The position numbers and the translations under genes are program-made. Source: Rhizobium sullae (lineage in GTDB: Bacteria; Pseudomonadota; Alphaproteobacteria; Rhizobiales; Rhizobiaceae). Taken from it: a DNA stretch of 64,000 bases. The notes below the pieces were generated by a model. That model was not told where the DNA came from. It saw only the letters and a list, made by a program, of their open reading frames with translations, and ran no database searches. Each line of letters opens with the position of its first letter. Position 1 is the first letter of the stretch. Location of the stretch: NCBI RefSeq assembly GCF_025200715.1, contig NZ_CP104143.1, positions 2,356,001 to 2,420,000 on the forward strand, written 5' to 3'. Below are positions 6,520 to 57,193 of the stretch, in pieces.

Positions 6520-6560
6520 GGCAAAGGTAGCGGCTCCCATATTCACCCGGGAGGTGCGCC

Positions 6561-8900
6561 ATGGATAAATCCACCTTCGACACCACCAAAGTCATCATCA
6601 GGGGCCCCATGCACGCTTCGCTGAAACATGATTCAGCGCATAAGCATGTGACCGGAACTGCCGATTATATCGATGACATTCCCGAACCCGCCGGCCTGCT
6701 GCACGGCGCGCTCGGCACCTCCGACCGCGCCCATGCCGAGATTCTCAGCATGGATCTTTCGGAAGTCCGCAGACACCCTGGCGTCGTTTGGGTCTTCACC
6801 GGCAAGGACGTGCCGGGCGCCAATGACGTCAGTTCCAACGGCAGCCATGACGAGCCGCTGCTTGCCGACGCCAAGGTCGAATTCCACGGCCAGCCGATCT
6901 TTGCCGTGATCGCCGAAACCCGCGACGCCGCGCGCCATGCCGCGCAGAAGGCGAAGATCGAGTATCGCGACCTGCCGCATTGGAGCGATATCGACGGTGC
7001 GCTCGAAAACGGCAGCCCGCTCGTCATCAGCCCGATGACATTGCAGCGCGGCGACGCCAAGGCCGAGATGGACAACGCCCAGCATCGCCTCAAGGGCCAG
7101 ATGCGCATCGGTGGTCAGGAGCATTTCTACCTCGAGGGCCACATCGCCATGGCGATCCCCGGCGAAGATGACGATGTGACCGTCTGGGCCTCGACTCAAC
7201 ACCCGAGCGAGATCCAGCATATCGTCGGCCACGTGCTGAACATTCCGTCGAATGCCGTGACGGTGAACGTGCGCCGCATGGGTGGCGGTTTCGGCGGCAA
7301 GGAAACGCAAGGCAACCAGTTTGCAGCGCTTGCCGCCATCGCCGCCAAGAAGCTGAAGCGCGCCGTCAAGTTCCGTCCTGACCGCGACGAGGACATGAGC
7401 TCCACCGGCAAGCGCCACGACTTCCTGGTGGATTACGAGCTGGGCTTTGACGACGAAGGCCGCATCCACGCCGTCGACGCGACCTATGCGGCGCGCTGCG
7501 GCTTTTCTTCCGACCTCTCCGGCCCGGTGACGGACCGTGCCCTCTTCCACGCCGATTCCAGCTATTTCTATCCGCATGTGCATCTGACCTCGATGCCGCT
7601 GAAGACGCATACCGTCTCCAATACCGCCTTCCGCGGCTTCGGCGGGCCGCAAGGCATGCTGGGGGCCGAGCGCTTCATCGAAGAGATCGCTTACGCAGTT
7701 GCCAAGGATCCGCTCGAAATCCGCAAGCTGAACTTCTACGGACAGCCGGGTTCCGGCCGCACGACGACGCCCTACCATCAGGAAGTTGAAGACAACATCA
7801 TCCTGCGCATCGTCGAGGAACTGGAGGAAAGCGCCGATTACCAGGCACGCCGCAATGCCATCATCGGCTTCAACCGCGACAGCCGCTACATCCGCAAGGG
7901 CATCGCGCTGACGCCGGTGAAATTCGGCATCTCCTTCACCATGACCGCCTTCAACCAGGCGGGGGCGCTGGTGCATATCTATCAGGACGGTTCGATCCAC
8001 CTGAACCACGGCGGCACCGAGATGGGCCAAGGCCTCTACACCAAGGTCGCGCAGGTGCTGGCCGACAGCTTCCAGGTCGATATCGACCGCGTGAAGATCA
8101 CCGCGACGACCACCGGCAAGGTGCCGAACACGTCCGCGACCGCCGCCTCGTCCGGCTCCGACCTGAACGGCATGGCCGCCCATGACGCCGCCCGGCAGAT
8201 CAAGGAGCGGCTCGTTGCCTTCGCCGCAGACAAATGGAACGTCGATGCGTCGGACATCGTCTTCCTGCCGAACCGGGTGCGCGTTGGCGAGGCGGAAATC
8301 CCCTTCCCCAATTTCATAAAGGAGGCCTATTTCGCCCGCGTGCAGCTTTCGGCAGCAGGCTTTTACAAGACGCCGAAGATCCATTGGGATCGGGCCGCGG
8401 GCCGCGGCACGCCTTTCTATTACTTCGCCTATGGTGCCGCCTGCAGCGAAGTCTCGATCGATACGCTGACCGGCGAATATCTGATCGACCGCACCGACAT
8501 CCTTCACGATGTCGGCTGCTCGCTGAACCCGGCGATCGATATCGGCCAGGTGGAAGGCGGCTTCGTGCAGGGCATGGGGTGGCTGACGACGGAAGAACTC
8601 TGGTGGGACGACAAGGGCCGGCTGCGCACACATGCGCCCTCGACCTACAAGATCCCACTCGCCTCCGACCGTCCGAAGATATTCAACGTCCGCCTCGCCG
8701 AGTGGTCAGAAAACACCGAGCCCACCATCGGCCGCTCCAAGGCGGTCGGCGAACCACCCCTCATGCTGGCAATCTCCGTGCTCGAAGCGCTCTCCATGGC
8801 CGTCGCCAGCGTCGCCGACTACAAGGTCTGCCCACGGCTCGACGCCCCGGCAACGCCGGAGCGGGTACTGATGGCGGTGGAGCGGATGAAGCGGGTGTAA
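6561..8900 (+). CDS. xdhB: Xanthine dehydrogenase large subunit (molybdopterin)
   Basis: 779-residue molybdenum-cofactor subunit that carries the purine active site. Two MoCo-binding domains are visible: GGGFGGKETQ near residue 240, FRGFGGPQG near 358 and MGQGLYTKVAQ near 487. Near the C-terminus is GEPPLMLAISVLEA, with the Glu that acts as the general base in this family. The ATG at 6561 has GGGAGG 6 nt upstream. Partner of XdhA and matured by XdhC. Nothing looks broken; the length is normal for bacterial XdhB. Confidence 0.95.
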   Translation: MDKSTFDTTKVIIRGPMHASLKHDSAHKHVTGTADYIDDIPEPAGLLHGALGTSDRAHAEILSMDLSEVRRHPGVVWVFTGKDVPGANDVSSNGSHDEPLLADAKVEFHGQPIFAVIAETRDAARHAAQKAKIEYRDLPHWSDIDGALENGSPLVISPMTLQRGDAKAEMDNAQHRLKGQMRIGGQEHFYLEGHIAMAIPGEDDDVTVWASTQHPSEIQHIVGHVLNIPSNAVTVNVRRMGGGFGGKETQGNQFAALAAIAAKKLKRAVKFRPDRDEDMSSTGKRHDFLVDYELGFDDEGRIHAVDATYAARCGFSSDLSGPVTDRALFHADSSYFYPHVHLTSMPLKTHTVSNTAFRGFGGPQGMLGAERFIEEIAYAVAKDPLEIRKLNFYGQPGSGRTTTPYHQEVEDNIILRIVEELEESADYQARRNAIIGFNRDSRYIRKGIALTPVKFGISFTMTAFNQAGALVHIYQDGSIHLNHGGTEMGQGLYTKVAQVLADSFQVDIDRVKITATTTGKVPNTSATAASSGSDLNGMAAHDAARQIKERLVAFAADKWNVDASDIVFLPNRVRVGEAEIPFPNFIKEAYFARVQLSAAGFYKTPKIHWDRAAGRGTPFYYFAYGAACSEVSIDTLTGEYLIDRTDILHDVGCSLNPAIDIGQVEGGFVQGMGWLTTEELWWDDKGRLRTHAPSTYKIPLASDRPKIFNVRLAEWSENTEPTIGRSKAVGEPPLMLAISVLEALSMAVASVADYKVCPRLDAPATPERVLMAVERMKRV

Positions 8901-8963
8901 GAGTGGCTTGCTCACTAACGCCTCAAGTCAAGGGGAATGAGCGGGGAAGCTGGTGCAAGTTGT

Positions 8964-9133
8964 ACCCCCCTCTGTCCTGCTGGACATCTCCCGAACAGGG
9001 GGGGAGATTGTCTAGAGACGACGGCTCCCTGCGACCAGCAGGCTGCGATAATTCGCATATTGTTTGGCGGCAAGCGCGCGTCATATCAATCTCCCCTCTT
9101 GTGGGGGAGATGTCCCGCAGGGCAGAGGGGGGT
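8964..9133. repeat. 46-bp inverted repeat pair between xdhB and xdhC
   Basis: Two 46-bp arms, 8964-9009 and 9088-9133, face each other across 78 bp. They share ACCCCCCTCTG, GGACATCTCCC and GGGGAGATT with a few mismatches between them. The family differs from that in the xdhA-xdhB gap but shares the G-run/C-run style of rhizobial intergenic repeats. It fills most of the 244-bp gap before xdhC and holds no gene. Confidence 0.75.
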
Positions 9134-9144
9134 GCTTTCGCGCC

Positions 9145-9957
9145 ATGACTTCCTCTTTCCTTTCCTTCGCGTCCGCCCACCCAGCCATCATCCTCATCGA
9201 CGTCGTCGGAACCCAGGGTTCGACCCCACGCGAAGCCGGCGCCTTCATGCTCGTCTCCGAAAACGCCGCCTGGGGCACGATCGGCGGTGGGCAGTTGGAG
9301 TTCATGGCGATCCGCAACGCGCGCGAACTGCTTGCGGGCGGCGGCAGCAAGGTCATGGATATTCCGCTGGGACCGGAGATCGGGCAGTGCTGCGGCGGGC
9401 GTACGCAATTGCGGTTCCGGCGGGTGACGGATGAACTGATGGCGGAACTGGGAGCACGGCAGGCCGAAGAAACAGAGCGGCGGCCGGAGGTCTATCTTTT
9501 CGGTGCAGGCCATGTCGGGCACGCGCTCGCTGCGGCACTTGCGCCGCTGCCGCTTTCCGTGATGGTGGTCGAGACGCGAACGGAAGAGCTTGCGAACCTG
9601 CCGGCGGAAACGAAGACGCGGCTTATGGCGATGCCGGAAGCGCTGGTGAAGGAAATGCCCGGCGGTTCCGCCGTCGTCATCCTCACGCACGACCATTCGC
9701 TGGACTTCCTGATCGCGCGTGAAGCGCTGGAGAGAACCGATCTTGCCTATACCGGCATGATCGGCTCGGCCACGAAACGCGCGACCTTCGCAAACTGGCT
9801 TATGCGCGAAGGAGGCGAGCGAAGCTTGCTCGACCGCCTCACGCTGCCGATTGGCGGTTCGGCGGTCAGGGACAAGCGGCCGGAAGTGATCGCCGCCATG
9901 ACCGCCGCCGAAATCTTGACGGCGCTTTCCGCCTATCGCCAGAGATCGGCCTCGTAG
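9145..9957 (+). CDS. xdhC: Xanthine dehydrogenase accessory protein
   Basis: 270-residue cytoplasmic chaperone of the XdhC/CoxI family, which binds molybdenum cofactor, promotes its sulfuration and inserts it into XdhB. The N-terminal XdhC domain has VGTQGSTPREAGAFML and the Cys-pair motif IGQCCGGR near residue 80. The C-terminal Rossmann domain has VYLFGAGHVGHALAAAL near 120 and GMIGSATKRATF near 207. ATG at 9145 is chosen because the family N-terminus begins there; a longer in-frame start at 9064 lies inside the repeat. Last gene of xdhABC. Its 3' end overlaps the next minus-strand gene by 25 bp. Confidence 0.93.
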   Translation: MTSSFLSFASAHPAIILIDVVGTQGSTPREAGAFMLVSENAAWGTIGGGQLEFMAIRNARELLAGGGSKVMDIPLGPEIGQCCGGRTQLRFRRVTDELMAELGARQAEETERRPEVYLFGAGHVGHALAAALAPLPLSVMVVETRTEELANLPAETKTRLMAMPEALVKEMPGGSAVVILTHDHSLDFLIAREALERTDLAYTGMIGSATKRATFANWLMREGGERSLLDRLTLPIGGSAVRDKRPEVIAAMTAAEILTALSAYRQRSAS

Positions 9958-10136
9958 CGCGGATCGCGTCCATCCAGGAAGCCGAGATCGCGCTTCACGC
10001 GGTCCGGTGTGCCCTCGAGATCGAGCCGCGACGGGTGGAATATCTTGCCATAAGCCCACGCCGCGATGCCTGAAACAAGCGCTGAAAGCGAGAGATTGAC
10101 GGGTTTCGAGCTTTCCTCGATAGCGTGGCAGTCCAT
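9933..10136 (-). CDS. Small unknown protein (67 aa)
   Basis: Not recognised. It has a middle hydrophobic patch (LSLSALVSGIAAWAYG) and a charged C-terminus with RVKRDLGFLDGRDPRYE, faintly like the short basic tails of DUF1127-type proteins. ATG at 10136 is preferred over TTG at 10154 because AAAGGTG sits 5-6 nt upstream. It is convergent with xdhC, overlapping its last 25 bp, and divergent from the LysR gene with a 102-bp gap. Expression is plausible; function is unknown. Confidence 0.55.
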   Translation of the reverse strand: MDCHAIEESSKPVNLSLSALVSGIAAWAYGKIFHPSRLDLEGTPDRVKRDLGFLDGRDPRYEADLWR

Positions 10137-10238
10137 GACATCACCTTTGTTCAACTGATGCTATGGCTTGCAGAGTGCCGCTAAAAATGCTGCAATTCCA
10201 ATCGAACAATCGTCTGAATGCATAAAGAGAAGTTATCC

Positions 10239-11135
10239 ATGAAGCTGTCGAAACAGTTCCCGCTGAATGCGCTGCGCGTCTTTGAGGCTGTGGCGCGGCT
10301 CGGCAGCTTCACCAAGGCGGGCGAAGAGCTCGGCATGACGCAAACTGCCGTCAGCTATCAAGTGAAGCTGCTGGAAGAGAATATCGGCGAACCGCTGTTC
10401 CTGCGCCGCCCGCGCATGATTAGCCTTACCGATGCCGGTGAACGGCTGGCGCCAAGGGTCACCGAAGGTTTCGCGATGCTGGCCGAGGCGATGGAATCGC
10501 TTCGACAAGCATCCGAGGAGACTCTGACGATCCATTCGACGGCGACTTTTGCCCAACAGTGGCTGTCGCGCCATCTTGGCTCGTTTCAGCTAAAACATCC
10601 TAACATTGCCGTCAGGCTGAAGACATCTGCAACACTCATAGATTTCAACAGGGAGGCGGCCGATCTGGCTGTCCGCTGGGGCGACGGCAATTGGCCGGGT
10701 CTCTGTTGCCATCGCATCATGCGCCTCGATTTTTCGCCGATGTTAAGTCCGGTGCTTGCTGCCAAGGTCGGCGGCGTTCATACGCCCGCCGATCTCCTCA
10801 AACTATCGATCATCAGCGCCGGGGACCATTGGTGGCGGATTTGGTTTGCCGCAGCAGGGATCGATAATCCGGGACTGGAGAAATTCCCCAGAAACGAACT
10901 CGGCACGCAAATCATGGACGCGAGTGTAGCCGCGGCGGGGCAAGGCGTCGCCATTCTGAATCCGGGGCATTTCGAAGAAGATATCGCCGCAGGCAGGCTC
11001 TATCAACCTTTCGAACTATCCTGCAACGACGGCCGCGATTACTGGCTGGCCTATCCCGGGAACCGCCGGAATGTGCCGAAGATCAGGGCCTTCCGGAACT
11101 GGATCATCGACGAGATGGGCGCGCACGATCTCTAA
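10239..11135 (+). CDS. LysR-type regulator (GcvA-like)
   Basis: 298 residues. The winged-helix N-terminus reads LNALRVFEAVARLGSFTKAG then MTQTAVSYQVKLLEE, the GcvA/AmpR-like subgroup of LysR regulators. A periplasmic-binding-like effector domain follows from about residue 95. ATG at 10239 is chosen because the reading from there has normal family length; the upstream ATG at 10218 adds seven residues without a better ribosome site. Its place between xdhC and the puuD-guaD block suggests it may control purine breakdown, but this rests only on position. Confidence 0.85.
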   Translation: MKLSKQFPLNALRVFEAVARLGSFTKAGEELGMTQTAVSYQVKLLEENIGEPLFLRRPRMISLTDAGERLAPRVTEGFAMLAEAMESLRQASEETLTIHSTATFAQQWLSRHLGSFQLKHPNIAVRLKTSATLIDFNREAADLAVRWGDGNWPGLCCHRIMRLDFSPMLSPVLAAKVGGVHTPADLLKLSIISAGDHWWRIWFAAAGIDNPGLEKFPRNELGTQIMDASVAAAGQGVAILNPGHFEEDIAAGRLYQPFELSCNDGRDYWLAYPGNRRNVPKIRAFRNWIIDEMGAHDL

Positions 11136-11142
11136 GTGGCGC

Positions 11143-11481
11143 TCAATAACCCATTTCCGGCGCGTAGAAGCAGCGCGGCGTATCCTCATTCGGGAACAGG
11201 CAGAGATGGTACTCACCATCGCCGGATTGCATCGCCTTCGTCATCGGCAGCATGAAGACATGAGCCCGCGTCACCAGCCGGTGGTCTCCAGGCAGCAGCG
11301 TCACGCGATATCCCCTGGGGGTCACTTTGACGCTCTTCGAAGGGATCATCTGGCAATCGCCTGTATGGTTGTCGCCATTGCAACAGAAAGGTTCGTAAGA
11401 CCAACCCGCTGGCGCGTCGTGAGCACTCACACTCGACGCGAACGCAATCATCACACTTGCCAGAATGCTGCGCATGGGCAT
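11143..11481 (-). CDS. Exported unknown protein, Cys-containing (112 aa)
   Basis: The N-terminus MPMRSILASVMIAFASSVSA looks like a Sec signal peptide with cleavage near residue 20. The mature part has four cysteines in FCCNGDNHTGDCQ and HLCLFP plus CFYAPEMGY at the C-terminus, suggesting a disulfide-bonded periplasmic protein. I recall such short proteins as conserved hypotheticals in Rhizobiales but know of no function. Convergent with the LysR gene, ending 7 nt from it. Confidence 0.75.
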   Translation of the reverse strand: MPMRSILASVMIAFASSVSAHDAPAGWSYEPFCCNGDNHTGDCQMIPSKSVKVTPRGYRVTLLPGDHRLVTRAHVFMLPMTKAMQSGDGEYHLCLFPNEDTPRCFYAPEMGY

Positions 11482-11536
11482 CTTCTCCGTCGATGAATGC
11501 GCCGCCCCAATGCGGTTTCCACCTCACCCCGGCGGC

Positions 11537-11553
11537 TACAATTGTAATTGTAA
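11537..11553. promoter_or_regulatory. TACAATTGTA palindrome with extra half-site
   Basis: A perfect 10-bp palindrome TACAATTGTA at 11537-11546 is followed by a further ATTGTAA, giving overlapping half-sites. It lies about 55 bp upstream of the exported-protein gene and 110 bp before the next plus-strand gene. It could bind a dimeric regulator; chance occurrence is also possible. Confidence 0.25.
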
Positions 11554-11664
11554 CCGACTCGTGACATTTCAAGGATCACTAAATTTTGCGGCGCAACATA
11601 TTCAAATGAGACGTGCCATCCCAATGCTTTCTGCAACTTTTAATAACATAAAGGACCGGGAAAA

Positions 11665-12258
11665 GTGCGGCGACGCAGACTGAATCGGAGACCTTTCGGG
11701 CGGAAATACGTCGCGGCAATTGCTATGCTCCCGGCATCAGCCTTGATCGCGGCCGCGACATATTACTATTCAGATCCTGTCGATTTTCAGAGACTTAAAC
11801 CCGGTGAGCCACAGCCTGCACATCTGCTCATCGCAGAGCAGTTTGACCGCGTTTGTGTTCTTGGACCTTATGAAGACAGACTTCACGAAATGGTGACTGG
11901 TGGCGATCGCGCTAACGAGCATCTCGCCAATATCGGATATCGCGGCGACGAAGGCCGTTGGGCAATCATCCTTATTCAAGAGTCGAAGATCGGCGTTCTC
12001 CGCTTTAGCCGCTCTGCTAAGCTCGACTTTTTGGCGGCCCATGCCGCGATCGAGCTACCTCTTCCAAGCAAATTGCCAGGAAATTTCACAGCAATGAATT
12101 GCGCGGACAGCAAATCCGCGGCGTTCACGATAGTCGAGGGACGATCGCCGATACGTGGTCCTCGGCGAGATAACCGACTGAGGCTCTACCCCTTCCCTCC
12201 CGCGGCAACTTTCTGCAATGTGGCGAGTCGGAGGAAGATAGGGGAACTCAATGTATGA
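11665..12258 (+). CDS. Unknown membrane-anchored protein (197 aa)
   Basis: Starts with GTG at 11665, AAAGGA about 9 nt upstream. A very basic N-terminus (RRRRLNRRPFGRK) is followed by one hydrophobic segment (YVAAIAMLPASALIAAATYY), so it is probably an N-in single-pass inner-membrane protein with a periplasmic domain. That domain contains FDRVCVLGPYEDR and WAIILIQESKIGVLRFSR. No family recognised. Its 3' end overlaps the start of puuD by 8 nt. The C-terminal 40 residues are low-complexity basic and might be frame read-through. Confidence 0.5.
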   Translation: MRRRRLNRRPFGRKYVAAIAMLPASALIAAATYYYSDPVDFQRLKPGEPQPAHLLIAEQFDRVCVLGPYEDRLHEMVTGGDRANEHLANIGYRGDEGRWAIILIQESKIGVLRFSRSAKLDFLAAHAAIELPLPSKLPGNFTAMNCADSKSAAFTIVEGRSPIRGPRRDNRLRLYPFPPAATFCNVASRRKIGELNV

Positions 12259-13492
12259 ATATGCCATAGCGTGGGAATGGCTGGCTTTCGCGGCGCGCTG
12301 GTTTCACGTCATCACCGCGATCGCCTGGATCGGCTCGTCGTTTTATTTCATCGCCCTCGACCTCGGCCTGGTGAAGCGGCCGCATCTTCCGCCGGGCGCC
12401 TATGGCGAGGAATGGCAGGTGCATGGCGGCGGTTTCTATCACATCCAGAAATACCTGGTGGCCCCGGCGCAGATGCCCGAGCACCTGACCTGGTTCAAGT
12501 ACGAAAGCTACTTCACCTGGCTCTCCGGCTTCCTGATGCTCTGCATCGTCTATTACGGCGGTGCCGACCTCTTCCTCATCGACCGGCATGTGCTCGATAT
12601 CAGCGCGCCGGTGGCGATCCTGATGTCACTTGCTTCGCTCGCCGTCGGCTGGGTCGTCTACGACCTGCTCTGCAAGTCGCCGCTCGGCAAGAACACCTGG
12701 GGACTGATGGCCGTGCTCTATGCGGTGATGGTCTTCATGGCCTGGGGCTACACACAGCTTTTCACCGGCCGCGCCGCTTTCCTGCATCTCGGCGCCTTCA
12801 CCGCGACGATCATGTCGGCCAACGTCTTCATGGTTATCATCCCCAACCAGAAGATCGTCGTCGCCGACCTCATCGCGGGGCGCACGCCCGATCCGAAATA
12901 CGGGCAGATCGCCAAGCAGCGCTCGCTGCACAACAACTACCTCACGCTGCCCGTCATCTTCTTCATGCTGTCGAACCACTATCCACTGGCCTTCGGCACC
13001 GCCTACAACTGGGTGATCGCCGCCCTCGTCTTCCTGATGGGCGTCACCATCCGCCACTGGTTCAACACGACGCATGCGCGCAAGGGACGGCCGACCTGGA
13101 CATGGATCGCGACGGTCATCCTCTTCATCCTTATCATGTGGCTTTCGACCGTGCCGAAGGCGCTGACGGGCGAACGCGATACGACTGCCGCTGTTGCGCC
13201 CGCGTTCCAGCAATTCGCCGGCGATCCGCACTTCCCTGCCGTCAAGGAGTTGATCTCGACGCGCTGTTCGATGTGCCATGCTGCCGAACCCGTCTACGAG
13301 GGCCTTGCCCGCCCGCCGAACGGCGTCATCTTCGAAAATGACGCGGAAATCGCCGCCCATGCGCGCGAAATCTATATACAGGCAGGCCGCAGCCATGCAA
13401 TGCCGCCCGGCAATGTGACGGATATCACGCAGGACGAGCGCAAGCTGCTCGTCACCTGGTTCGAAAGCGCAGTCGAAGGCAAACAGCAATGA
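12251..13492 (+). CDS. puuD: Membrane urate hydroxylase with cytochrome c domain
   Basis: 413 residues. Eight or nine hydrophobic segments (HVITAIAWIGSSFYFIAL, WLSGFLMLCIVYYGG and others) come before a C-terminal cytochrome c domain whose haem site is C339-x-x-C342-H343 (CSMCH). This is the PuuD architecture: urate is oxidised to 5-hydroxyisourate at the inner membrane and electrons pass to the respiratory chain instead of making peroxide as soluble uricase does. The product goes to UraH, UraD, PuuE, Alc and AllA, encoded 7-11 kb away on the other strand. The last 4 nt overlap guaD, so the two are translationally coupled. Confidence 0.93.
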   Translation: MYEYAIAWEWLAFAARWFHVITAIAWIGSSFYFIALDLGLVKRPHLPPGAYGEEWQVHGGGFYHIQKYLVAPAQMPEHLTWFKYESYFTWLSGFLMLCIVYYGGADLFLIDRHVLDISAPVAILMSLASLAVGWVVYDLLCKSPLGKNTWGLMAVLYAVMVFMAWGYTQLFTGRAAFLHLGAFTATIMSANVFMVIIPNQKIVVADLIAGRTPDPKYGQIAKQRSLHNNYLTLPVIFFMLSNHYPLAFGTAYNWVIAALVFLMGVTIRHWFNTTHARKGRPTWTWIATVILFILIMWLSTVPKALTGERDTTAAVAPAFQQFAGDPHFPAVKELISTRCSMCHAAEPVYEGLARPPNGVIFENDAEIAAHAREIYIQAGRSHAMPPGNVTDITQDERKLLVTWFESAVEGKQQ

Positions 13493-49245: not shown

Positions 49246-49313
49246 CTTTGAGAGCCGGCATTTCTTCCGGAACGATCCCGTCTCCCCCTCGTTATCGCGC
49301 CAGGGAGGGCGCC

Positions 49314-49556
49314 ATGCCTGGAGTGCGAAAAATGATTGTGCTCAGTGCCTTCAACAAGGATGAGCGCGGTACCCTGATTCCGGCATTCGAGCCTCGGCAC
49401 ATGAAGAGGGAAGACACGGCCGTCTATATCGCCCAGACGCTCGTTAACGATTACGATGGCGTCGTCGTCTGGTGCCACGAGGGAAACCCTGCCATCGGCG
49501 AACAAGGCCCATCGGTCATCCTGTTCCAGTCAGGCTTGGTGCCGGAATTCGATTAG
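49314..49556 (+). CDS. Unknown small protein (80 aa)
   Basis: Not recognised. Soluble and mixed alpha/beta in look: MIVLSAFNKDERGTLIPAFEP, then AVYIAQTLVNDYDGVVVWCHE. AGGGAGG lies 6 nt before ATG 49314. It precedes the first transglutaminase gene by 45 nt on the same strand and may be co-transcribed with it. No family function known. Confidence 0.65.
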   Translation: MPGVRKMIVLSAFNKDERGTLIPAFEPRHMKREDTAVYIAQTLVNDYDGVVVWCHEGNPAIGEQGPSVILFQSGLVPEFD

Positions 49557-49601
49557 CCGCAGCCTTTTGTCGTATCGAAGCTCCGGGGTGGGCGAGACAG
49601 C

Positions 49602-50477
49602 ATGACCGTTTTTTCCGTCAAGCACATCACGCATTATTCCTACAAACGGCCCGTCACCTTCGGGCAGCACCGCTTGCTTTTCCGCCCGCGGGACAGCTTC
49701 GACCAGCGTCTTCTGGATGCTACCTTGACGGTCGACCCCGAGCCGGCCCAGATCCGCTGGATACACGACGTCTTCGGAAATTGCATTGCGCTCGTGGACA
49801 TCGACCGGCCGGCGGATCAGTTGCGCTTCGAGACCAATATTCGCCTTGATCACACACCGCAGGTGCCGCTCGATCTTGAGATCGATCGCAAGGCACTGAC
49901 CTATCCGTTTTCCTATGGCGACGAAGAGATGCCGGACCTTTCCTGCACGATCACACGCCACTACGAGGATCCGGACGGTGCGGTTGCTCACTGGGCGCAC
50001 CAGTTCGTCGGAACAAGCTCCTCGGGCCAGACCGGCCACGTCCTGATGACGCTCTGCTATGCGATCCACGAAAGTTTCGTCTATGCCCGCCGCTCCGAAC
50101 ACGGAACGCAGGCGCCGATCCAGACGCTCATGCAGCGGCAGGGAACTTGCCGCGACTTTGCCCTGCTGATGATGGAGGCCGCCCGGTCGCTTGGCCTCGC
50201 TGCCCGTTTCGTCACCGGTTACATCTACGTGCCGGATCGCGACGGTTCGATGACGCTCGGCGGTGGCTCGACGCATGCCTGGTGCCAGGTTTATCTCCCG
50301 GGCGCCGGCTGGGTGGAATTCGATCCCACGAACGGCATCGTCGGCAACCACGATCTGATCCGCGTCGGCGTTGCGCGTGATCCCCGCCAAGCGGTTCCAC
50401 TCTGGGGCAGCTACGACGGAGCGGCGGACGATTTTGACGATCTGATTGTGCAGGTCAACGTCACCACCGAACGGTAA
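49602..50477 (+). CDS. Transglutaminase-like cysteine enzyme 1
   Basis: 291 residues: an N-terminal bacterial beta-sandwich region (HITHYSYKRPVTFGQHRLLF), then a papain-fold transglutaminase core with a complete triad: Cys183 in QGTCRDFALL, His225 in STHAWCQVY and Asp241 in EFDPTNG. Such proteins are predicted to cleave or form amide bonds. Cytoplasmic as no signal peptide is seen. It is the first of three such genes in about 5 kb. Confidence 0.88.
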   Translation: MTVFSVKHITHYSYKRPVTFGQHRLLFRPRDSFDQRLLDATLTVDPEPAQIRWIHDVFGNCIALVDIDRPADQLRFETNIRLDHTPQVPLDLEIDRKALTYPFSYGDEEMPDLSCTITRHYEDPDGAVAHWAHQFVGTSSSGQTGHVLMTLCYAIHESFVYARRSEHGTQAPIQTLMQRQGTCRDFALLMMEAARSLGLAARFVTGYIYVPDRDGSMTLGGGSTHAWCQVYLPGAGWVEFDPTNGIVGNHDLIRVGVARDPRQAVPLWGSYDGAADDFDDLIVQVNVTTER

Positions 50478-50560
50478 AGTGTGGTGAAGAGCCTGTGGAA
50501 CTGATAGCTTTTCCTGACGTTCCATGATGGCCTGCGGGCTTGCTGGATGAAGGAGCTTCC

Positions 50561-51382
50561 ATGAAGATTCGCGCTGGTTTCACGATAGGCTATGAATGCG
50601 TGCAGCCAACGCCAATGCTTCTCGTCCTCAATATCCACCCCTCGCGGCGTCCCGACCTCTTGACGGATCAGGTGCTGTCGTTCAACCAGCCGATCGAGGC
50701 GTGGAACTATACCGACGGTTTTGGCAATTCCTGTACGCGCATCGTCGCCCCGCCCGGAGTTACCACGATTTCGACCGCGTTCGAGATCTATGACAGCGGC
50801 CAGCCGGATGTCGTGCCGGTGGACGCTCCGCAGCACGAGATCAAGGACCTGCCGGACGACGTGCTCGTTTTCCTTCTCGGCAGCCGTTACTGCGATACGG
50901 ATCGGCTAGGTGATTTCGCCTGGGCGACATTCTCGAATACAATATCCGGCTGGCCGCGCGTGCAAGCTATTGCCGATTTCGTACACGGCCATATCGAGTT
51001 CGACTACCTGAAAGCCGATGCGCGCAGAACCGCGCATGGCGGCTATTCAGACAGGACCGGCGTCTGCCGCGACTTCGCGCATCTTGCCATAACGCTCTGC
51101 CGCTGCATGAACATACCGGCGCGCTATTGCACCGGATATCTCGGCGATATCGGCGTGCCGCCCGATCCCGCGCCAATGGATTTCAGCGCCTGGTTCGAAG
51201 TCTATCTGGGTGGTCACTGGCATACCGTGGATGCCCGGCACAACATTCCGCGCATCGGCCGCATACTGATGGCAACCGGCCGCGATGCGACGGATGTGGC
51301 CATCTCGACCGCTTTCGGCCCCGCCGTATTGAAGCAGTTCGAGGTCGTGACGGAAGAAGTGCCCGGCGATGCCACCGCCTAG
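50561..51382 (+). CDS. Transglutaminase-like enzyme 2, catalytic His apparently replaced
   Basis: 273 residues with the same family layout: N-terminal region (GYECVQPTPMLLVLNIHPS), Cys169 in TGVCRDFAHLA and an Asp at 224 (HTVDARHN). Where His would be expected, the motif reads DFSAWFEVYL, with Ser209 in place of His. Either the enzyme is inactive or another His (H219 or H221 in GGHWHTVD) takes over. ATG at 50561 has AAGGAG 6 nt upstream. It lies 83 nt after enzyme 1. Confidence 0.85.
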   Translation: MKIRAGFTIGYECVQPTPMLLVLNIHPSRRPDLLTDQVLSFNQPIEAWNYTDGFGNSCTRIVAPPGVTTISTAFEIYDSGQPDVVPVDAPQHEIKDLPDDVLVFLLGSRYCDTDRLGDFAWATFSNTISGWPRVQAIADFVHGHIEFDYLKADARRTAHGGYSDRTGVCRDFAHLAITLCRCMNIPARYCTGYLGDIGVPPDPAPMDFSAWFEVYLGGHWHTVDARHNIPRIGRILMATGRDATDVAISTAFGPAVLKQFEVVTEEVPGDATA

Positions 51383-51468
51383 CCAGGCAGGCATTCGGGT
51401 ATTCCGCCTGCCGTGCACCCCTCGCTACGGAAACAGAAAGCTAATCCCAGGCTACGTGCTCGCAGGGC

Positions 51469-51615
51469 CTACCATGGTACGCCTCTGAATGTAATATAGA
51501 TGATGAAAGCAAGGCTGATCGCCGGCGTCGATTTAATCAAGAATTCGACATATCGAAACTGAGTGAGGGACAGAGCGATGTTCCTCCAGGAGTGAAAAGT
51601 TATCGTGGAAGACAT
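51469..51615 (-). CDS. Small membrane protein (48 aa)
   Basis: A short frame that starts with ATG at 51615 right behind AAAGGAGGAGG, one of the strongest ribosome sites in the window, and ends with TAG at 51469. It reads MSSTITFHSWRNIALSL, then a basic region and a C-terminal hydrophobic stretch STPAISLAFIIYITF. Probably a single-helix inner-membrane small protein. It has no recognised relatives and would be missed by most gene callers. Confidence 0.6.
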   Translation of the reverse strand: MSSTITFHSWRNIALSLTQFRYVEFLIKSTPAISLAFIIYITFRGVPW

Positions 51616-51696
51616 GAAATCCTCCTCCTTTGGTTAGGGCCAGGTACTGCCACCATCTGACGTCGGCAGCACAAGGTCGTTCGGTGGGGGAATCCC

Positions 51697-51724
51697 TCGC
51701 GGCGCAGTTATTCGAGCGCCGCGA
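51697..51724. repeat. GC-rich hairpin
   Basis: TCGCGGCGC (51697-51705) and GCGCCGCGA (51716-51724) can pair around a 10-nt loop between the 48-aa gene and the DUF1488 gene. It may act as a factor-assisted transcription end for the DUF1488 gene. No T-run. Confidence 0.4.
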
Positions 51725-51771
51725 AAACGACCTCCATCTAAGCCTGTCAGACGCGATCGATATTTGTACGA

Positions 51772-52035
51772 TCAGCGAAAATCCCGTGCAGTGAGTGTCA
51801 GATTATTTCCGCGCCGATGTGCATAGGCTCTGGAGGCTGCTTCCTGGATCGTAGAGCGTGCGGCGTCAAAGGCACCGAGACAGGCCAGTTCCGAAGCGCT
51901 CGCCGCGGCGGATTGTCCAAGTGCTGCTGCTTCGACGAGAAACCTGACTTCGAACATGCCGTCGTAGCCGGTAAAGCGGACAGCCTTCCTCGTTTCGTCG
52001 AAAGTACGGCTTCTGTTGGGAAAGATGAGCGTCAT
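51772..52035 (-). CDS. DUF1488 protein
   Basis: 87 residues. The opening MTLIFPNRSRTFDETRKAVRF, read as LIFPNRSRTFDETR, then FTGYDGMFEVRFLVEA and the C-terminal YAHRRGNNLTLTARDF, match the DUF1488 pattern, a small beta-rich domain of unknown role. ATG at 52035 follows GAGGA. Part of a run of small genes between two transglutaminase blocks. Confidence 0.75.
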   Translation of the reverse strand: MTLIFPNRSRTFDETRKAVRFTGYDGMFEVRFLVEAAALGQSAAASASELACLGAFDAARSTIQEAASRAYAHRRGNNLTLTARDFR

Positions 52036-52098
52036 TCGGCTAGTCCTCAAAATGGGCGTGGGTCAGGCGATATGCTGCGACCATCACGGATTTCATAC

Positions 52099-52401
52099 TC
52101 AATGGATGGTCTGTGCTATGACCTCGTCATCAAGCAGAGCATGGGATGTTCTGATGAGACGAACCGTGCCCGCGATAATCTCGTCGGAGTATGCCGCGTC
52201 CGCATGTGAAATTTCATCGGTCAAATCGCGGAGAACTTCGTTTATTTCCAGCATTAGCGGCACAAGTTCCAGTTGCCCGTCGGCCGCAAGTCCATGCGCA
52301 AGGTTTGCAATCACCGCCCTAAGATGATCAATAAGTGCACGCCGCTCAGCAATTGCTGGTTCTGAAGGCTCCATGGGTGCCGCTTCAACGCTAAACTGCA
52401 T
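52099..52401 (-). CDS. Unknown helical protein (100 aa)
   Basis: Acidic and almost entirely helical by composition: RRALIDHLRAVIANLAHGL, LVPLMLEINEVLRDLTDEI and GTVRLIRTSHALLDDEV. GGAGGTGG lies 5 nt before the ATG. No family recognised; could be a small regulatory or structural protein. It starts 63 nt upstream of the DUF1488 gene on the same strand. Confidence 0.6.
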   Translation of the reverse strand: MQFSVEAAPMEPSEPAIAERRALIDHLRAVIANLAHGLAADGQLELVPLMLEINEVLRDLTDEISHADAAYSDEIIAGTVRLIRTSHALLDDEVIAQTIH

Positions 52402-52723
52402 GATGCCACCTCCATACCTTAAAATGGGTTCTGCCGCGGCGTTATCAATGCCTAGTGCGGAATGAGGTTGCTCTTAGCCTGACAAAGGAGGACATGATAT
52501 CTTTCGTCAACGATCAATTCTTCGATGCCACGAATTTAATAATTCCGGACGGCACAAGATTTATGAGCGTTTTCAATATAAATATTAGCCAAAATATATT
52601 TGCGATTCCAAATTTAGCTTTCAAAATATATTTTAATTTAATTAGAACGCAGCGGATATCATGCTATTGTAACTTTCTCTCCAGCAATATTGCTGGACCG
52701 ATCGCCAAAGATTGGACAAAATC
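52402..52723. promoter_or_regulatory. AT-rich gap with a perfect 16-bp palindrome
   Basis: 322 bp without a convincing gene. From about 52500 to 52680 the sequence is strongly AT-rich (runs such as AAAATATATTTTAATTTAATT), unlike the GC-rich surroundings. At 52681-52696 is the perfect palindrome CCAGCAATATTGCTGG, 28 bp before the next gene start. The AT-rich stretch could bind a MucR- or H-NS-like silencer and the palindrome a specific dimeric regulator. Both are inferences. A weak frame from 52455 (121 residues) covers part of it and is not convincing. Confidence 0.5.
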
Positions 52724-53077
52724 ATGGAAAAGTTTTCTTGGTTGCGACCGGCCGTTTACGGCGCGGTTTGCGGAGCAGCAGCCCTTACTATCATTGGCTT
52801 TTCGTGGGGCGGCTGGGTAACCGGCGCCGGCGCACAAAAGTCAGCTGGCATTGAAAGGACGGCAGCCATAGCCGCAGCCTTGACGCCCTATTGCCTCGAA
52901 CGTGCAAAGTCGGATCCGGCTGCCACTGAAATCATGGCAGAGCTGAAGGCGGCCAGCAGCTACAGCCGTTCCGATGTCGTCAAGAAAGCTGGTTGGGCGA
53001 CGCCTCTCGGCAGCACCGAGCCGAATTCGGATCTAGCGCAGGCGTGCCAAATCGCACTTGGCAAGGTCGCCCCCTGA
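52724..53077 (+). CDS. Unknown membrane-anchored protein (117 aa)
   Basis: One N-terminal hydrophobic helix (YGAVCGAAALTIIGFSWGGWVTG) anchors the protein; the rest is periplasmic, with AAIAAALTPYCLERAKSDP and VKKAGWATPLGSTEPNSDLAQACQ, two conserved-looking cysteines. I recall the pattern from hypotheticals of Rhizobiales; the function is unknown. ATG at 52724 is preferred; TTG at 52712 is an alternative. The palindrome at 52681-52696 is at its promoter. Confidence 0.65.
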   Translation: MEKFSWLRPAVYGAVCGAAALTIIGFSWGGWVTGAGAQKSAGIERTAAIAAALTPYCLERAKSDPAATEIMAELKAASSYSRSDVVKKAGWATPLGSTEPNSDLAQACQIALGKVAP

Positions 53078-53133
53078 CGAGCCGGGGCTGTTTTATATGA
53101 CTTAACGATTATTCAAACGCAGAAGAGGCACTC

Positions 53134-53343
53134 ATGCCGCGTAAAAGCTTGCATTCCACCATGAGTGCCAGGATATCGGGGCGCGATCAGGCACAGGCGA
53201 CAACGATCGCCTTCAACAAGATCATGGCGAGCGAGGTTGCAGAACGGAGCGAAAAATCCGCCCGGCTGAAAGCGTCGCGCCTTGCACTGGAAATCGCGAT
53301 CGCACCGGCTTTGCGGACGAGAGCTGAACGGTACGACAGGTAA
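53134..53343 (+). CDS. Unknown small protein (69 aa)
   Basis: Basic, Ala- and Ser-rich helical peptide (QAQATTIAFNKIMASEVAERS, RLKASRLALEIAIAPALRTRA). GAGG lies 6 nt before ATG. No family recognised. Convergent with the next gene. Confidence 0.45.
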   Translation: MPRKSLHSTMSARISGRDQAQATTIAFNKIMASEVAERSEKSARLKASRLALEIAIAPALRTRAERYDR

Positions 53344-53420
53344 CCACGCTTAAAGGAGACGTGACGCTTTTACGGCTGTCTCTTTGCCTTTCGTTGAAAC
53401 ACCAGCATCCTTGGTGCAGA

Positions 53421-53639
53421 TCAATGGCGGTCAGCGCGGAGGGCTGCAGCGATCAGATCGCATTCAAAAGTATGAGCACGCAGTTGCTGATTGAAATCAA
53501 CGAGCTGTTCTGCGGCCAGCGAGCTCGGTTCTCCCCGCAGTAAAATACCCGCAATATGGGCTTCCTGCGCCGCGATGTGCTTTCTGTCTTCCACCACGCG
53601 CCGACGGGAAAGCTCCAAATCTTTCGAAGAATACGCCAT
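53421..53639 (-). CDS. Unknown small protein (72 aa)
   Basis: Hydrophilic helical peptide (LELSRRRVVEDRKHIAAQEAH, then VDFNQQLRAHTFECDLIAAAL). The ribosome site is weak. No family recognised; the frame is plausible but could be spurious. Confidence 0.4.
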   Translation of the reverse strand: MAYSSKDLELSRRRVVEDRKHIAAQEAHIAGILLRGEPSSLAAEQLVDFNQQLRAHTFECDLIAAALRADRH

Positions 53640-53737
53640 GGCGTACTATAGCACGACTTTAAGCCGAAATCTTAATAACGCCAAAATGAAAATCTTCCGA
53701 TCTTCTTTCTGCGAACAGTTTTAAACAACGCTAGCCA

Positions 53738-54556
53738 TCAGCTCTGGCTTTGCATCTGGCTCTGATCTTCGACCTTGACCATGACCGACAGCTTCTCGCC
53801 CGGCGTGCCGATACGCATGCCAGAAACCGGGGCTGCGTCGCGGTAGCAGAGGCCGGAAGCGACGCGGACGTAGCGGGCATCGGGGCAGATGTCGTTTGCC
53901 GGATCGAAGCCGACCCAGCCGAGGTTGGGTATGTGCGCTTCACCCCAAGCGTGCGTCGCGGCCTGCTCGGCTTTCCCCTCCATCATCAAGTAGCCGGAGA
54001 CATAGCGGGCAGGCACGTGCAATGCGCGAGCCGCCGAAACGAAGATGTGGGCATGGTCCTGGCAGACGCCGCTCTTCTTCTCCATCGCCTGTTCGGCGGT
54101 CGTGTCCGTGTTGCTGGTCCCCGGCCTGTAGTCGACGGCTTCGTGGATGGCAGCCATCAGCGCATGCATCCGGGCGAGCTCGTTGTCGCCGTTTATCGTC
54201 CGTATCAGTTCCCTGATAAGCTTGCCGGGCTTGGTGCGCGGCGTGTCGCGCAGGAACAGCCAGAGCGGGCAGAAGCCGGTATGCGGGCCGGTCATTCCGT
54301 TGCGGTCTTCGGTTTCCACCTCGCCCTCGGCGACGATGCGCGTCACCTTCTGTTCGCCTTGCAGCGAGACGAGGTTGACATGGTTGCCGAACTGGTCGTC
54401 GTATTCCACCTCGGGCTTGGCGCCTTCGACATGCAGCGACCAGTTCAGAACCTTCTGCCCGAAGGCTGAGGGCGGCGTCAGGCGCAGCCGCTGCAGCGAG
54501 AACTGCGACGGCTCGTCGTAGTGGTATTCGGTGACATGGCTAATCTTCAGTCTCAT
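53738..54556 (-). CDS. Transglutaminase-like enzyme 3 of the ATP-grasp/alpha-E operon
   Basis: 272 residues. N-terminal region HVTEYHYDEPSQFSLQRLRL as in TgpA-type relatives, then a core with the full triad: Cys165 in SGVCQDHAHIF, His202 in ATHAWGEAHI and Asp218 in GFDPAND. No signal peptide. It lies 12 nt downstream of the alpha-E gene and is the last of the ATP-grasp/alpha-E/transglutaminase set, whose predicted role is synthesis or removal of peptide tags. Confidence 0.9.
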   Translation of the reverse strand: MRLKISHVTEYHYDEPSQFSLQRLRLTPPSAFGQKVLNWSLHVEGAKPEVEYDDQFGNHVNLVSLQGEQKVTRIVAEGEVETEDRNGMTGPHTGFCPLWLFLRDTPRTKPGKLIRELIRTINGDNELARMHALMAAIHEAVDYRPGTSNTDTTAEQAMEKKSGVCQDHAHIFVSAARALHVPARYVSGYLMMEGKAEQAATHAWGEAHIPNLGWVGFDPANDICPDARYVRVASGLCYRDAAPVSGMRIGTPGEKLSVMVKVEDQSQMQSQS

Positions 54557-54568
54557 CTCATGCCCCGC

Positions 54569-55513
54569 TTAAACGTAGAATCGATAGCCGTCGGAAATTT
54601 CCATGCCCAGCTGATTGTTGCGGTTGACGAAATCCTCAAGGAACTCGTGCAACCCTTGGTCCATGACGTCCTTGATCTGCCTCGTTTGCAATGACGTCCG
54701 GATGGCGTCAGCGGTATCGTGAGCCGACAGCCGTTCGCCGCCGTAACTGCTTGATATGTAGCCGAGGTTGCTGACGATCTTTTCGTAGCAATAGGCCAGC
54801 GACCGCGGCATCTGGCCATTCAAGATCAGGAAGTCGGCGATATTGGCCGCCTTGTATTCCTCGTCATAGGCCCAGCTGTAGGAACGGTGCGCTGAAACCG
54901 ACCGCAGGATCGATTCCCACTGGACGTTGTCGATCGAGGACCCCACCTGCGAGATGGATGGCAGCAGCACGTAATATTTGACGTCCAGAATGCGGCTCGT
55001 ATTGTCCGCCCGCTCGATGAAGGTGCCGATGCGCGCGAAGTTATAGAGCTCGTTTCTCAGCATCGAGCCATGAAAGGCCCCGCGGATAAGGCCTGCGCGC
55101 CGCTTGATGACATCGATGACCTCGGGCATCTCGGCCGCCTTGAGGCGCTTGGAAAGCAGGGCCTTGAGCTCGATCCAGCATTCGTTGGTTGCCTCCCAGG
55201 TCTCGCGGGTCAGCGCCGTGCGCACCATGCGGGCGTTGTTGCGGCCGGAATCGATGCAGGACATCACGCTCGACGGATTGGAAAGGTCACGCAGCAGATA
55301 GTCGATCGCATCGGCCCTGGTGAGCTTGGCGTGCCCTTCGTCGTAGGCTTCGCGGACGCCAGCGCTCTGCAGAACACCATCCCAGTCATCATCGCCTGTG
55401 CCGCTTCGGGTCAGCGACATGCGCAGGCCGGCATCGATAAGACGCGCGATATTCTCGCCGCGCTCGATGTAACGGAACATCCAGTAGAGTCCGTTTGCAG
55501 TTCTTCCGAGCAT
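54569..55513 (-). CDS. Alpha-E domain protein (DUF403)
   Basis: 314 residues, helical, with the family motifs MLGRTANGLYWMFRYIERGEN at the start (read as MLGRTANGLYWMFRYIER), then LIRGAFHGSMLRNELYNFARI and FIERADNTSRILDVKYYVLL near residue 185. ATG at 55513 shares one base with the ATP-grasp stop. The domain is always linked with ATP-grasp and transglutaminase genes in known genomes and is thought to be part of the peptide-bond machinery, but no activity has been shown to my knowledge. Confidence 0.9.
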   Translation of the reverse strand: MLGRTANGLYWMFRYIERGENIARLIDAGLRMSLTRSGTGDDDWDGVLQSAGVREAYDEGHAKLTRADAIDYLLRDLSNPSSVMSCIDSGRNNARMVRTALTRETWEATNECWIELKALLSKRLKAAEMPEVIDVIKRRAGLIRGAFHGSMLRNELYNFARIGTFIERADNTSRILDVKYYVLLPSISQVGSSIDNVQWESILRSVSAHRSYSWAYDEEYKAANIADFLILNGQMPRSLAYCYEKIVSNLGYISSSYGGERLSAHDTADAIRTSLQTRQIKDVMDQGLHEFLEDFVNRNNQLGMEISDGYRFYV

Positions 55514-56922
55514 CAATCCTCCAATACCCAAGTGTCTTTGGTACCGCCGCCCTGGCTCGAATTGACGACCAGCGAGCCCTGCTTTAGCGCCACGCGGGTC
55601 AACCCGCCCGGAATGATCTGAACTTTGTCGGAAACCAGCACATAGGGCCGCAGGTCCACGTGACGCGGCGCAATCCCCTTGTTGACGAGGATCGGCACCG
55701 TAGAGAGCGAAAGCGTCGGCTGGGCGATGTAGTTGTTCGGCCGGGCCTTCAGCTTTTCTGCAAAGTCGACCCGCTCCTTCTTCGAGGCCGTCGGGCCGAC
55801 TAGCATGCCGTAGCCGCCGGAGCCGTGCACCTCCTTCACGACGAGTTCTTCGAGGTGCTCCAGCACATATTTCAGGCTGTCTGCCTCTGAGCAGCGCCAT
55901 GTCGGCACGTTTTCGAGAAGCGCCTTCCGGCCGGTATAGAATTCGACGATCTCCGGCATATAGGAATAGATCGCCTTGTCGTCGCAGATACCGGTGCCCG
56001 GCGCGTTGGCGATGGTGATGTTGCCGGAGCGGTAGACATCCATTATGCCCGGAATGCCGAGCGCGGAATCGGCACGGAATGTCAGCGGGTCGAGGAAGTC
56101 GTCATCGACGCGGCGGTAAAGCACGTCGATCGCCTCATAGCCGCGGGTGGTGCGCATCTTCACCTTGCCGTCGATGACACGCAGGTCCGCTCCTTCGACC
56201 AATTCCACGCCCATCATGTCGGCGAGAAACGAATGTTCGTAATAGGCGGAATTGTAGATGCCGGGCGTCAGCACGGCGACGCGCGGCTTGCCCTTGCAGC
56301 CGGGAGGCGCGAGCGAGGCAAGCGATTGGCGCAGCAGATACGGATAATCCTCGACACGCTGGACCTTGTTCTCGTGGAAGAGTTCCGGGAACATCTGCAT
56401 CATGGTTTCCCGGTTTTCCAGCATATAGCTGACGCCGGACGGCGTGCGGGCATTATCTTCCAGGACGTAGAACTGATCCTCTCCGGTGCGCACGATGTCG
56501 GTGCCGACGATATGCGTATAGACGCCACCGGGCGGACGGAAACCGATCATCTCGGAAAGGAACGTGTCGTTCTTCTCGATCAGCTCACGCGGAATGCGGC
56601 CGGCGCGGATAATCTCCTGCTTGTGGTAGATGTCGTCGAGGAAGGCGTTGAGAGCAATCACCCGCTGCTCGATACCCTGAGCGAGCTTGCGCCATTCGCG
56701 GCCGGAGATAATGCGCGGGATGATGTCGAACGGAATGAGCTTTTCGGAAGAGTCCTCGTGCCCATAAACGGCGAAGGTGATGCCGGTTTTCCGGAAGATG
56801 TTTTCCGCGTCGCGGGATTTGGCAATCAGATGCGCCCTGTCTTGGGCATTGTACCATTCGAAATATTTTTCATATGGCTGACGGGGATTTTCATCCCCGG
56901 TGATCATTTCATCAAATGCCAA
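55513..56922 (-). CDS. Circularly permuted ATP-grasp protein (type 2, DUF404/DUF407)
   Basis: 469 residues with the layout of the permuted ATP-grasp family: FDIIPRIISGREWRKLAQGI near 64, then IEKNDTFLSEMIGFRPPGGVY, VLEDNARTPSGVSYMLENRE near 154, GIYNSAYYEHSFLADMMG, YRRVDDDFLDPL, and VVKEVHGSGGYGMLVGP as glycine-rich ATP loop near residue 366. By family it should activate a carboxylate with ATP and join it to an amine. First gene of the minus-strand operon; the 271-bp gap before it holds no gene and likely its promoter. Confidence 0.9.
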   Translation of the reverse strand: MAFDEMITGDENPRQPYEKYFEWYNAQDRAHLIAKSRDAENIFRKTGITFAVYGHEDSSEKLIPFDIIPRIISGREWRKLAQGIEQRVIALNAFLDDIYHKQEIIRAGRIPRELIEKNDTFLSEMIGFRPPGGVYTHIVGTDIVRTGEDQFYVLEDNARTPSGVSYMLENRETMMQMFPELFHENKVQRVEDYPYLLRQSLASLAPPGCKGKPRVAVLTPGIYNSAYYEHSFLADMMGVELVEGADLRVIDGKVKMRTTRGYEAIDVLYRRVDDDFLDPLTFRADSALGIPGIMDVYRSGNITIANAPGTGICDDKAIYSYMPEIVEFYTGRKALLENVPTWRCSEADSLKYVLEHLEELVVKEVHGSGGYGMLVGPTASKKERVDFAEKLKARPNNYIAQPTLSLSTVPILVNKGIAPRHVDLRPYVLVSDKVQIIPGGLTRVALKQGSLVVNSSQGGGTKDTWVLED

Positions 56923-57193
56923 AGGTGTGGCTCCCCTTCTTTTTGTTCATTTGAATACAATGCAAAAGGCAATGCAAGAACCATGCACAGTTCGAAGAGA
57001 AGATTCCTAAAATCGTCAACAGCGCCAAAAACAGGCAAAAAACCGGTATTTAGGCAGCCATGCCGCGAGCACGTGAACGGATGGTCTAGCGGGCACGGCC
57101 AAAAAGTGGGCATGTGATTATTTTCCGCTCGCCCCGCCGACTCAAATCACGCCAGTGGGGTTTTGCTTGCGCGGTGTGCCGCCGGTAGTCCCC

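Follow-up and report, generated by a model that had tools for sequence, protein, structure and literature searches.

A known amidoligase core operon and a separate, probably stress-controlled transglutaminase-like gene pair side by side in Rhizobium sullae

We analyzed a 64,000-nucleotide stretch of Rhizobium sullae DNA (G000:C1:2356001-2420000, in a 7.6 Mb genome of four contigs; hereafter the window), in which a minus-strand operon for a circularly permuted (CP) ATP-grasp protein, an alpha-E protein and a transglutaminase-like protein (TG3) is faced by plus-strand genes for an 80-amino-acid protein (sA) and two further transglutaminase-like proteins (TG1 and TG2). The locus is probably best read as two separate modules lying side by side, namely the core operon and an independent general-stress module, TG1-TG2, predicted to be under the sigma factor EcfG. 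What is new here is this second, probably stress-controlled module with a member that has lost its catalytic histidine; the His-less TG2 subfamily, its stress-type promoter and the constant presence of TG1 alongside the TG2 orthologs in the genus sample make a concrete and testable addition to what was known of such loci.

The core operon

The sequence-only reading had listed these genes, and the list of open reading frames together with the Pfam matches confirmed both the genes and their coordinates. The ATP-grasp gene (CP_ATPgrasp_2; 55513-56922, minus strand, TTG start) matched PF14403 with an E-value of 9.2e-165 and 548.5 bits against a cut-off of 32, and is followed head to tail by the alpha-E gene (54569-55513, minus strand; PF04168, 2.8e-92, 310 bits), with which it overlaps by 1 nucleotide, and, after a gap of 12 nucleotides, by TG3 (53738-54556, minus strand; Bact_transglu_N and Transglut_core domains), whose Cys-His-Asp triad is intact. 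Fifteen window proteins were compared by tblastn with 80 core loci, which were the best 80 of at least 593 loci with ATP-grasp relatives, belonged by their titles to Rhizobium and its relatives, and overlap in strains with the sample of 120 same-genus genomes used below. ATP-grasp, alpha-E and TG3 were found in this order and on the same strand in all 80 loci. An ATP-grasp match was present in 120 of 120 same-genus genomes, one of which (G003, 82% complete) gave a weaker match only, and alpha-E was present in 147 of 199 order-level genomes. The ATP-grasp protein was 99% identical to its counterpart in Rhizobium mongolense. By eye, the TTG at 56920-56922 with which the ATP-grasp gene starts recurs at that position in the 80 aligned strings.

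The ATP-grasp protein aligned with PDB entry 3n6x across residues 2-469, that is, over nearly its full length; a sequence search up to an E-value of 1 returned no relative of solved structure for alpha-E. Residues Asp142, Glu155, Asn157, Lys363, the Gly loop, Asn454 and Lys462 of ATP-grasp were kept in 81 of 81 rows, as were all the other residues that we examined, including those of the ATP/Mg type, whose roles we presume by analogy with glutathionylspermidine synthetase. The operon thus combines a CP-ATP-grasp protein with ATP/Mg-type residues, an alpha-E gene in the same operon and a TG3 with an intact triad, and its assignment in the sequence-only reading to the ATP-grasp/alpha-E/transglutaminase amidoligase systems is borne out by the protein families, the operon structure and the conservation in 80 of 80 loci. 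Judged by these features, the minus-strand operon is the already known amidoligase core. Systems of this kind were reportedly described, by prediction, by Iyer et al. in 2009.

The core probably joins and cuts amide bonds. ATP-grasp would activate a carboxylate with ATP and couple it to an amine, alpha-E would act as its dedicated protein partner, and TG3, as an intact Cys-His-Asp amidase or transferase, would cleave or exchange the same type of bond, and together the three proteins would form and take apart a small product or tag of the amide or peptide kind; the direction of the reaction and the product are what we infer here from the domains, the operon arrangement, its conservation and the intact residues. 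The partnership of alpha-E with ATP-grasp is supported by the fusion of alpha-E to an ATP-grasp domain in a second locus of the same genome, which is described below.

The Anbu peptidase is a frequent companion of this core and not a defining part of it. No Anbu was found in the window, as the sequence-only reading had noted, and the same holds for the whole genome, in which the sole PF00227 match is a protein of 176 amino acids that we take, from its sequence, to be HslV-like, its neighbor being presumably hisB. The operon is therefore like the described CP-ATP-grasp/alpha-E/transglutaminase amidoligase systems in carrying the three core families together, and differs from them in that no Anbu peptidase was found in this genome. 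Likewise, it shares ATP-grasp, alpha-E and a transglutaminase-like gene with the Anbu operons of Y. bercovieri and P. aeruginosa, as these are presented in the available parts of PMC6376114 and PMC5666114, and differs from them in the missing Anbu. The ATP-grasp protein encoded in the Y. bercovieri operon has been reported to release orthophosphate from ATP, and the same source, in the parts available, terms the proposed roles of the Anbu operon unconfirmed and gives no specific interaction between Anbu and the remaining operon proteins (PMC6376114). According to citations in PMC5666114 and PMC6376114, whose available parts name no product for these systems, the making or editing of amide bonds by them has been predicted since 2009.

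Distribution and linkage of the TG1-TG2 pair

TG1 (49602-50477, plus strand) contains Bact_transglu_N and Transglut_core domains and a Cys-His-Asp triad, and TG2 (50561-51382, plus strand) contains Transglut_core only, with Ser209 replacing the catalytic histidine and with Cys169 and Asp224 kept. Among the matches listed, TG2 was 98% identical to a Rhizobium sullae protein. In the sample of 120 same-genus genomes, only rows with at least 76% identity to TG2 were entered (76 of the 113 listed), which excluded 27 paralogs at 51-54%, eight relatives at around 30-33% and, in G113, two fragments of a disrupted second copy. By this measure, TG2 orthologs were present in 75 of the 120 genomes, as 76 copies, and 45 genomes were without one. 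In 76 of 76 cases, TG1 preceded TG2 on the same strand at a distance of less than 600 bases, two of these TG1 partners being partial or broken (G025:C17 and G013:C14).

The position of the pair relative to the core was far less constant. With ATP-grasp rows taken only from the 75 genomes that have TG2, 17 of the 76 copies were within 15 kb of the core, all of them convergent with it, 21 were on the same contig at distances of 40 kb to 3.7 Mb, and 38 were on other contigs. Seen from the core, TG1/TG2 orthologs with at least 80% identity were found by tblastn in four of the 80 loci, and the weaker matches in the remaining ones fell on TG3; in six loci (L023, L043, L052, L063, L068 and L088) the sequence behind the ATP-grasp gene is shorter than 5 kb, so TG1/TG2 could not show there. 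A tree was built from 37 TG2 sequences, comprising every one of the 17 linked copies, 17 of the 59 unlinked ones and three outgroups; in it, the core-linked copies formed a single clade with a support of 95/96, as expected if the linkage arose once. It is therefore probable that TG1-TG2 came to adjoin the core once, in one Rhizobium clade.

TG2 and the ATP-grasp gene are 1.80-1.89 kb apart in 11 of the 17 linked genomes. By our own arithmetic, assuming the core length of the window, TG2 and TG3 are then separated by about 25-110 bases, compared with about 2.4 kb in the window, so that the stretch of small genes found here looks inserted. Among 18 stretches around TG1-TG2 (unlinked pairs from the genus and three from the order), no protein cluster was common to all except for the TG1/TG2 matches themselves. 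The widest other cluster, present in nine of the 18, was set aside, since by coordinates its representative lies antisense over TG1 and is thus probably no gene.

Two further transglutaminase-like genes were seen near the core in other genomes. One, of the His type and about 31% identical to TG2, lies convergent to the core at a distance of about 3.3 kb on the side occupied here by TG1-TG2 (L113 of genome G037, 11945-12730), and a similar His-type gene lies, by coordinates, about 5 kb from the ATP-grasp gene in another genome (G057:C1:2163592-2164365).

EcfG-type promoters of the plus-strand genes

Sites of the form GGAAC-N16-CGTT precede both the 80-amino-acid gene (49269-49293, plus strand) and TG2 (50497-50521, plus strand). 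This is the motif reported for EcfG1 of R. etli in the available part of PMC3892343. Before the 80-amino-acid gene, the two boxes were found in 19 of the 19 rows that contain it, with a spacer of 16 or 17, although these rows include four strains twice (L012/L094, L013/L095, L020/L103 and L028/L106). When spacers of 15-18 were allowed, the boxes preceded 35 of 37 TG2 copies (17 of 17 linked, 15 of 17 unlinked and three of three outgroups); the spacer was exactly 16 in 33 of these 35 sites, and its bases varied, with 31 distinct sequences among the 33. Control words obtained by shuffling the boxes preceded on average 0.26 of the 37 copies. For TG1, no such site was present within 160 bases in any of 26 rows. 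TG2 and the 80-amino-acid gene thus share with the R. etli EcfG regulon a promoter motif at a conserved position, and both are predicted to be under this general-stress sigma factor. The TG1-TG2 pair, before which the 80-amino-acid gene stands in most members of this clade, would accordingly be transcribed by EcfG, and TG1 would be the intact transglutaminase-like enzyme of the stress module. The word transglutaminase is absent from the main text of PMC3892343, in the part available, and the regulation described here is a prediction; a literature search of limited scope returned nothing joining EcfG, the general stress response or RpoE2 with transglutaminase.

The active site of TG2

In the alignment of TG2 with the bacterial transglutaminase-like protein of PDB entry 3isr, which shares its family and the positions of Cys and Asp, Ser209 of TG2 stands where 3isr has its histidine. 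Among the best 120 TG2 homologs listed, of 8000 scored, position 209 was Ser in 117 and Asn in three, and Cys169 and Asp224 were present in all. Among 65 TG2-type loci with at least 48% identity, it was Ser in 59, Ala in four, Asn in two and His in none, and all four relatives near 31% identity carried His; Cys169 and Asp224 were kept in 69 of 69 loci. TG2 therefore lacks the Cys-His-Asp triad of catalytic transglutaminase-like proteins and, on this comparison, is a member of a subfamily without the catalytic His. Because the canonical residue is lost, TG2 probably serves as a regulatory or binding subunit, or else has a rewired site.

That TG2 is still catalytic, with His142, His174, His227 or some other residue standing in for the missing one, is conceivable, yet we are inclined to doubt it. 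A moved catalytic His is possible in principle, since such a migration has been described within the papain-like fold (available part of PMC10318531), and the idea draws on the presence of Cys169 and Asp224 in all 69 loci and all 120 close homologs, on His174, likewise found in all 69 loci, and on the enrichment of His142 (64 of 65) and His227 (57 of 65) in the His-less rows as compared with the His-type ones (one and none of four, respectively). However, neither His142 nor His227 is universal, His174 is shared with the His-type proteins, and position 209 is Ala or Asn in six of the 65 loci. A compensating role of His221, beside the Asp, was rejected, as this residue occurs in only 81 of the 120 homologs.

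The core promoter and the question of nitrogen control

Upstream of the core, at 56948-56978 on the minus strand, we found a two-part element, CTTGCATTG-N9-TTGTATTCAAATG, which in a degenerate form (CTTGCAWTG-N9-YTGTAYTC, then NNATG) was present in 76 of the 80 core loci. With up to three mismatches allowed, it is unique in the genome (G000:C1:2412948-2412978). Its strong conservation before the core makes it a candidate site of an unnamed regulator.

Another reading takes the core in Rhizobium for a nitrogen-starvation operon under sigma54/NtrC, as related clusters are elsewhere. It draws on the NtrC/sigma54 dependence of the B. cenocepacia cluster I35_5080-5083 (PMC5491218), on the higher expression of P. 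putida PP_2685/PP_2688 on nitrate than on ammonium (PMC8050072) and on an association with urea domains in marine metagenomes (PMC3597751), all as given in the available parts of these sources, and the spacing GG-N10-GC does occur before the operon of the window. Nevertheless, by our own count GG stands at that place in 38 of the 80 loci, as against 76 of 80 for the TTGCATTG/TTGTATTC element, and one-mismatch matches to the sigma54 pattern were at chance level in the window and did not include the GG-N10-GC site. Moreover, the available part of PMC5666114 cites unchanged expression of Anbu-operon genes under various conditions, with Anbu itself raised under nitrogen limitation in P. putida, which tells against a nitrogen or a stress role. 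We therefore consider nitrogen control of the core unlikely, and a sigma54 promoter, though it would fit the window, was rejected, since no more than 38 of 80 relatives have its -24 GG in the same position. The B. cenocepacia cluster resembles the genes described here in having DUF404/407, DUF403, transglutaminase-like and large transglutaminase-like genes; it differs in that the large gene lies within the cluster, whereas here it is in the second locus, and in its sigma54 control, which is not supported for the operon of the window (PMC5491218, available part). According to the available part of PMC8407117, a hit for nodule competitiveness in a regulatory region of S. meliloti SM11 was linked to a COG2308 gene.

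One system or two

Several observations weigh against reading the locus as two independent modules, the second of them under EcfG. Among the 199 genomes of the order sample, in which TG2-type proteins were accepted with an E-value of at most 1e-60 and had 43-100% identity, 80 of the 81 with a TG2-type protein carry alpha-E, the single exception being 56% complete, versus 67 of the 118 others (Fisher 3e-13, uncorrected for lineage or genome size). This nesting suggests some dependence of TG2 on the core, of which TG2 may be an accessory. His-type genes such as that of L113, and the relatives of the 80-amino-acid gene near other transglutaminase loci (see below), suggest in addition that such genes gather here repeatedly. 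As for the promoter, one of the shuffled-word controls reached 24 of the 37 TG2 copies, two of the 37 copies have no EcfG-type site, the five matches with looser spacing in the window were equaled by six of 100 shuffles, and four of the 80 ATP-grasp genes likewise have a looser form of the site in the 400 bases before them. The site fades in the wider order, where it was found at nine of the 29 best-scoring loci, two of these nine being of the same genus. GGAAC-N16-CGTT is furthermore not enriched genome-wide (84 sites against 103 in the reversed control), and the argument for EcfG hence rests on conservation at one place, not on the match itself.

If TG1-TG2 acts on the product of the core, the near absence of TG2 without alpha-E would be explained. 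The pair might then be a stress-induced enzyme and pseudoenzyme that recognizes and removes or edits this product, with TG2 as the reader and TG1 as the cutter; we regard this as rather unlikely, but if true, the pair would provide the first handle on the product of the core.

The sequence-only reading went further and proposed one integrated system, in which the plus-strand transglutaminases and the small proteins serve as substrate, carrier or regulator of the ATP-grasp operon; the nesting with alpha-E, the 17 linked pairs and the closeness of the 80-amino-acid gene to the core in all 20 genomes that have it speak for it, but we judge it improbable, because TG1/TG2 are missing from 45 of 120 genomes, all 120 having an ATP-grasp match, 59 of 76 TG2 copies were not found near the core, all linked copies belong to one clade, the core has a promoter element different from that of TG2 and the 80-amino-acid gene, and the 100- and 121-amino-acid genes occur in none of the 80 core loci. 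Few of these loci carry any of the plus-strand or small genes, so membership in a fixed unit of eight to ten genes failed the co-occurrence test, while a looser functional tie is possible in view of the 80 of 81 genomes. Under the preferred division into a core and a separate stress module, the constant three genes are sorted from their variable neighbors, which leaves a narrower set to reconstitute.

A second, paralogous locus

The same genome contains a second locus (G000:C1, about 2.945-2.951 Mb), in which an ATP-grasp/alpha-E fusion (L107, G000:C1:2938001-2956000, 9960-12380) lies beside a fusion of transglutaminase with DUF2126, a putative amidoligase (6538-9945), and which also holds a transglutaminase-like gene. 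In eight of eight such loci, the ATP-grasp part lacks Glu155, Asn157, Lys363, Glu364, the Gly loop, Asn454 and Lys462, and keeps Arg271, Asp273, Asp278, Glu229, His230 and Arg425; at the identity of about 30% of this alignment single columns may be misplaced, though Pfam still detects the domain. Since residues of the ATP site are lost and DUF2126 is adjacent, the ligase of this locus is probably DUF2126, and the role of the ATP-grasp/alpha-E unit is probably non-catalytic. This second locus is likewise a concrete and testable addition. Directly upstream, at L107 4457-6513, there is a two-component system (a response regulator and a 2CSK_N kinase), as there is in five of the seven other loci.

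Small genes around the core

The small frames that the sequence-only reading had placed in the locus were indeed without a family above its cut-off. One gene that it had overlooked encodes a DUF1488 protein (51772-52050, minus strand; Pfam 3.4e-16) and is no member of the core. No Pfam family scored above the cut-off for the 80-amino-acid protein that heads the plus-strand set (49314-49556, plus strand), for the 100-amino-acid frame (52099-52401, minus strand) and the 121-amino-acid protein (52712-53077, plus strand), which are not conserved with the core, or for the 72-amino-acid frame (53421-53639, minus strand). By tblastn, the 80-amino-acid gene was found in six of the 80 core loci, the DUF1488 and 72-amino-acid genes in two each, and the 100-, 121- and 69-amino-acid frames in none. 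In the genus sample, the 80-amino-acid gene (at least 74% identity) was present in 20 of 120 genomes, by eye never more than about 7 kb from the ATP-grasp gene, and in four of the 20 without TG1-TG2.

More distant relatives of these genes were also seen. Of 20 stretches retrieved, four contained relatives of the 121-amino-acid protein (33-74% identity), always in the vicinity of a TG2-type gene. A relative of the 80-amino-acid protein (60-61%) lies within about 1.5 kb of a TG2 paralog (G030:C23:57864-58103), and two others of the same identity are each separated by about 5 kb from a match to a large transglutaminase like that of the second locus (G037:C1:2484253-2484492 and G057:C1:2490231-2490470). 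Finally, a DUF1488 relative (49%) directly adjoins a TG2 paralog (L108, 7246-7512).

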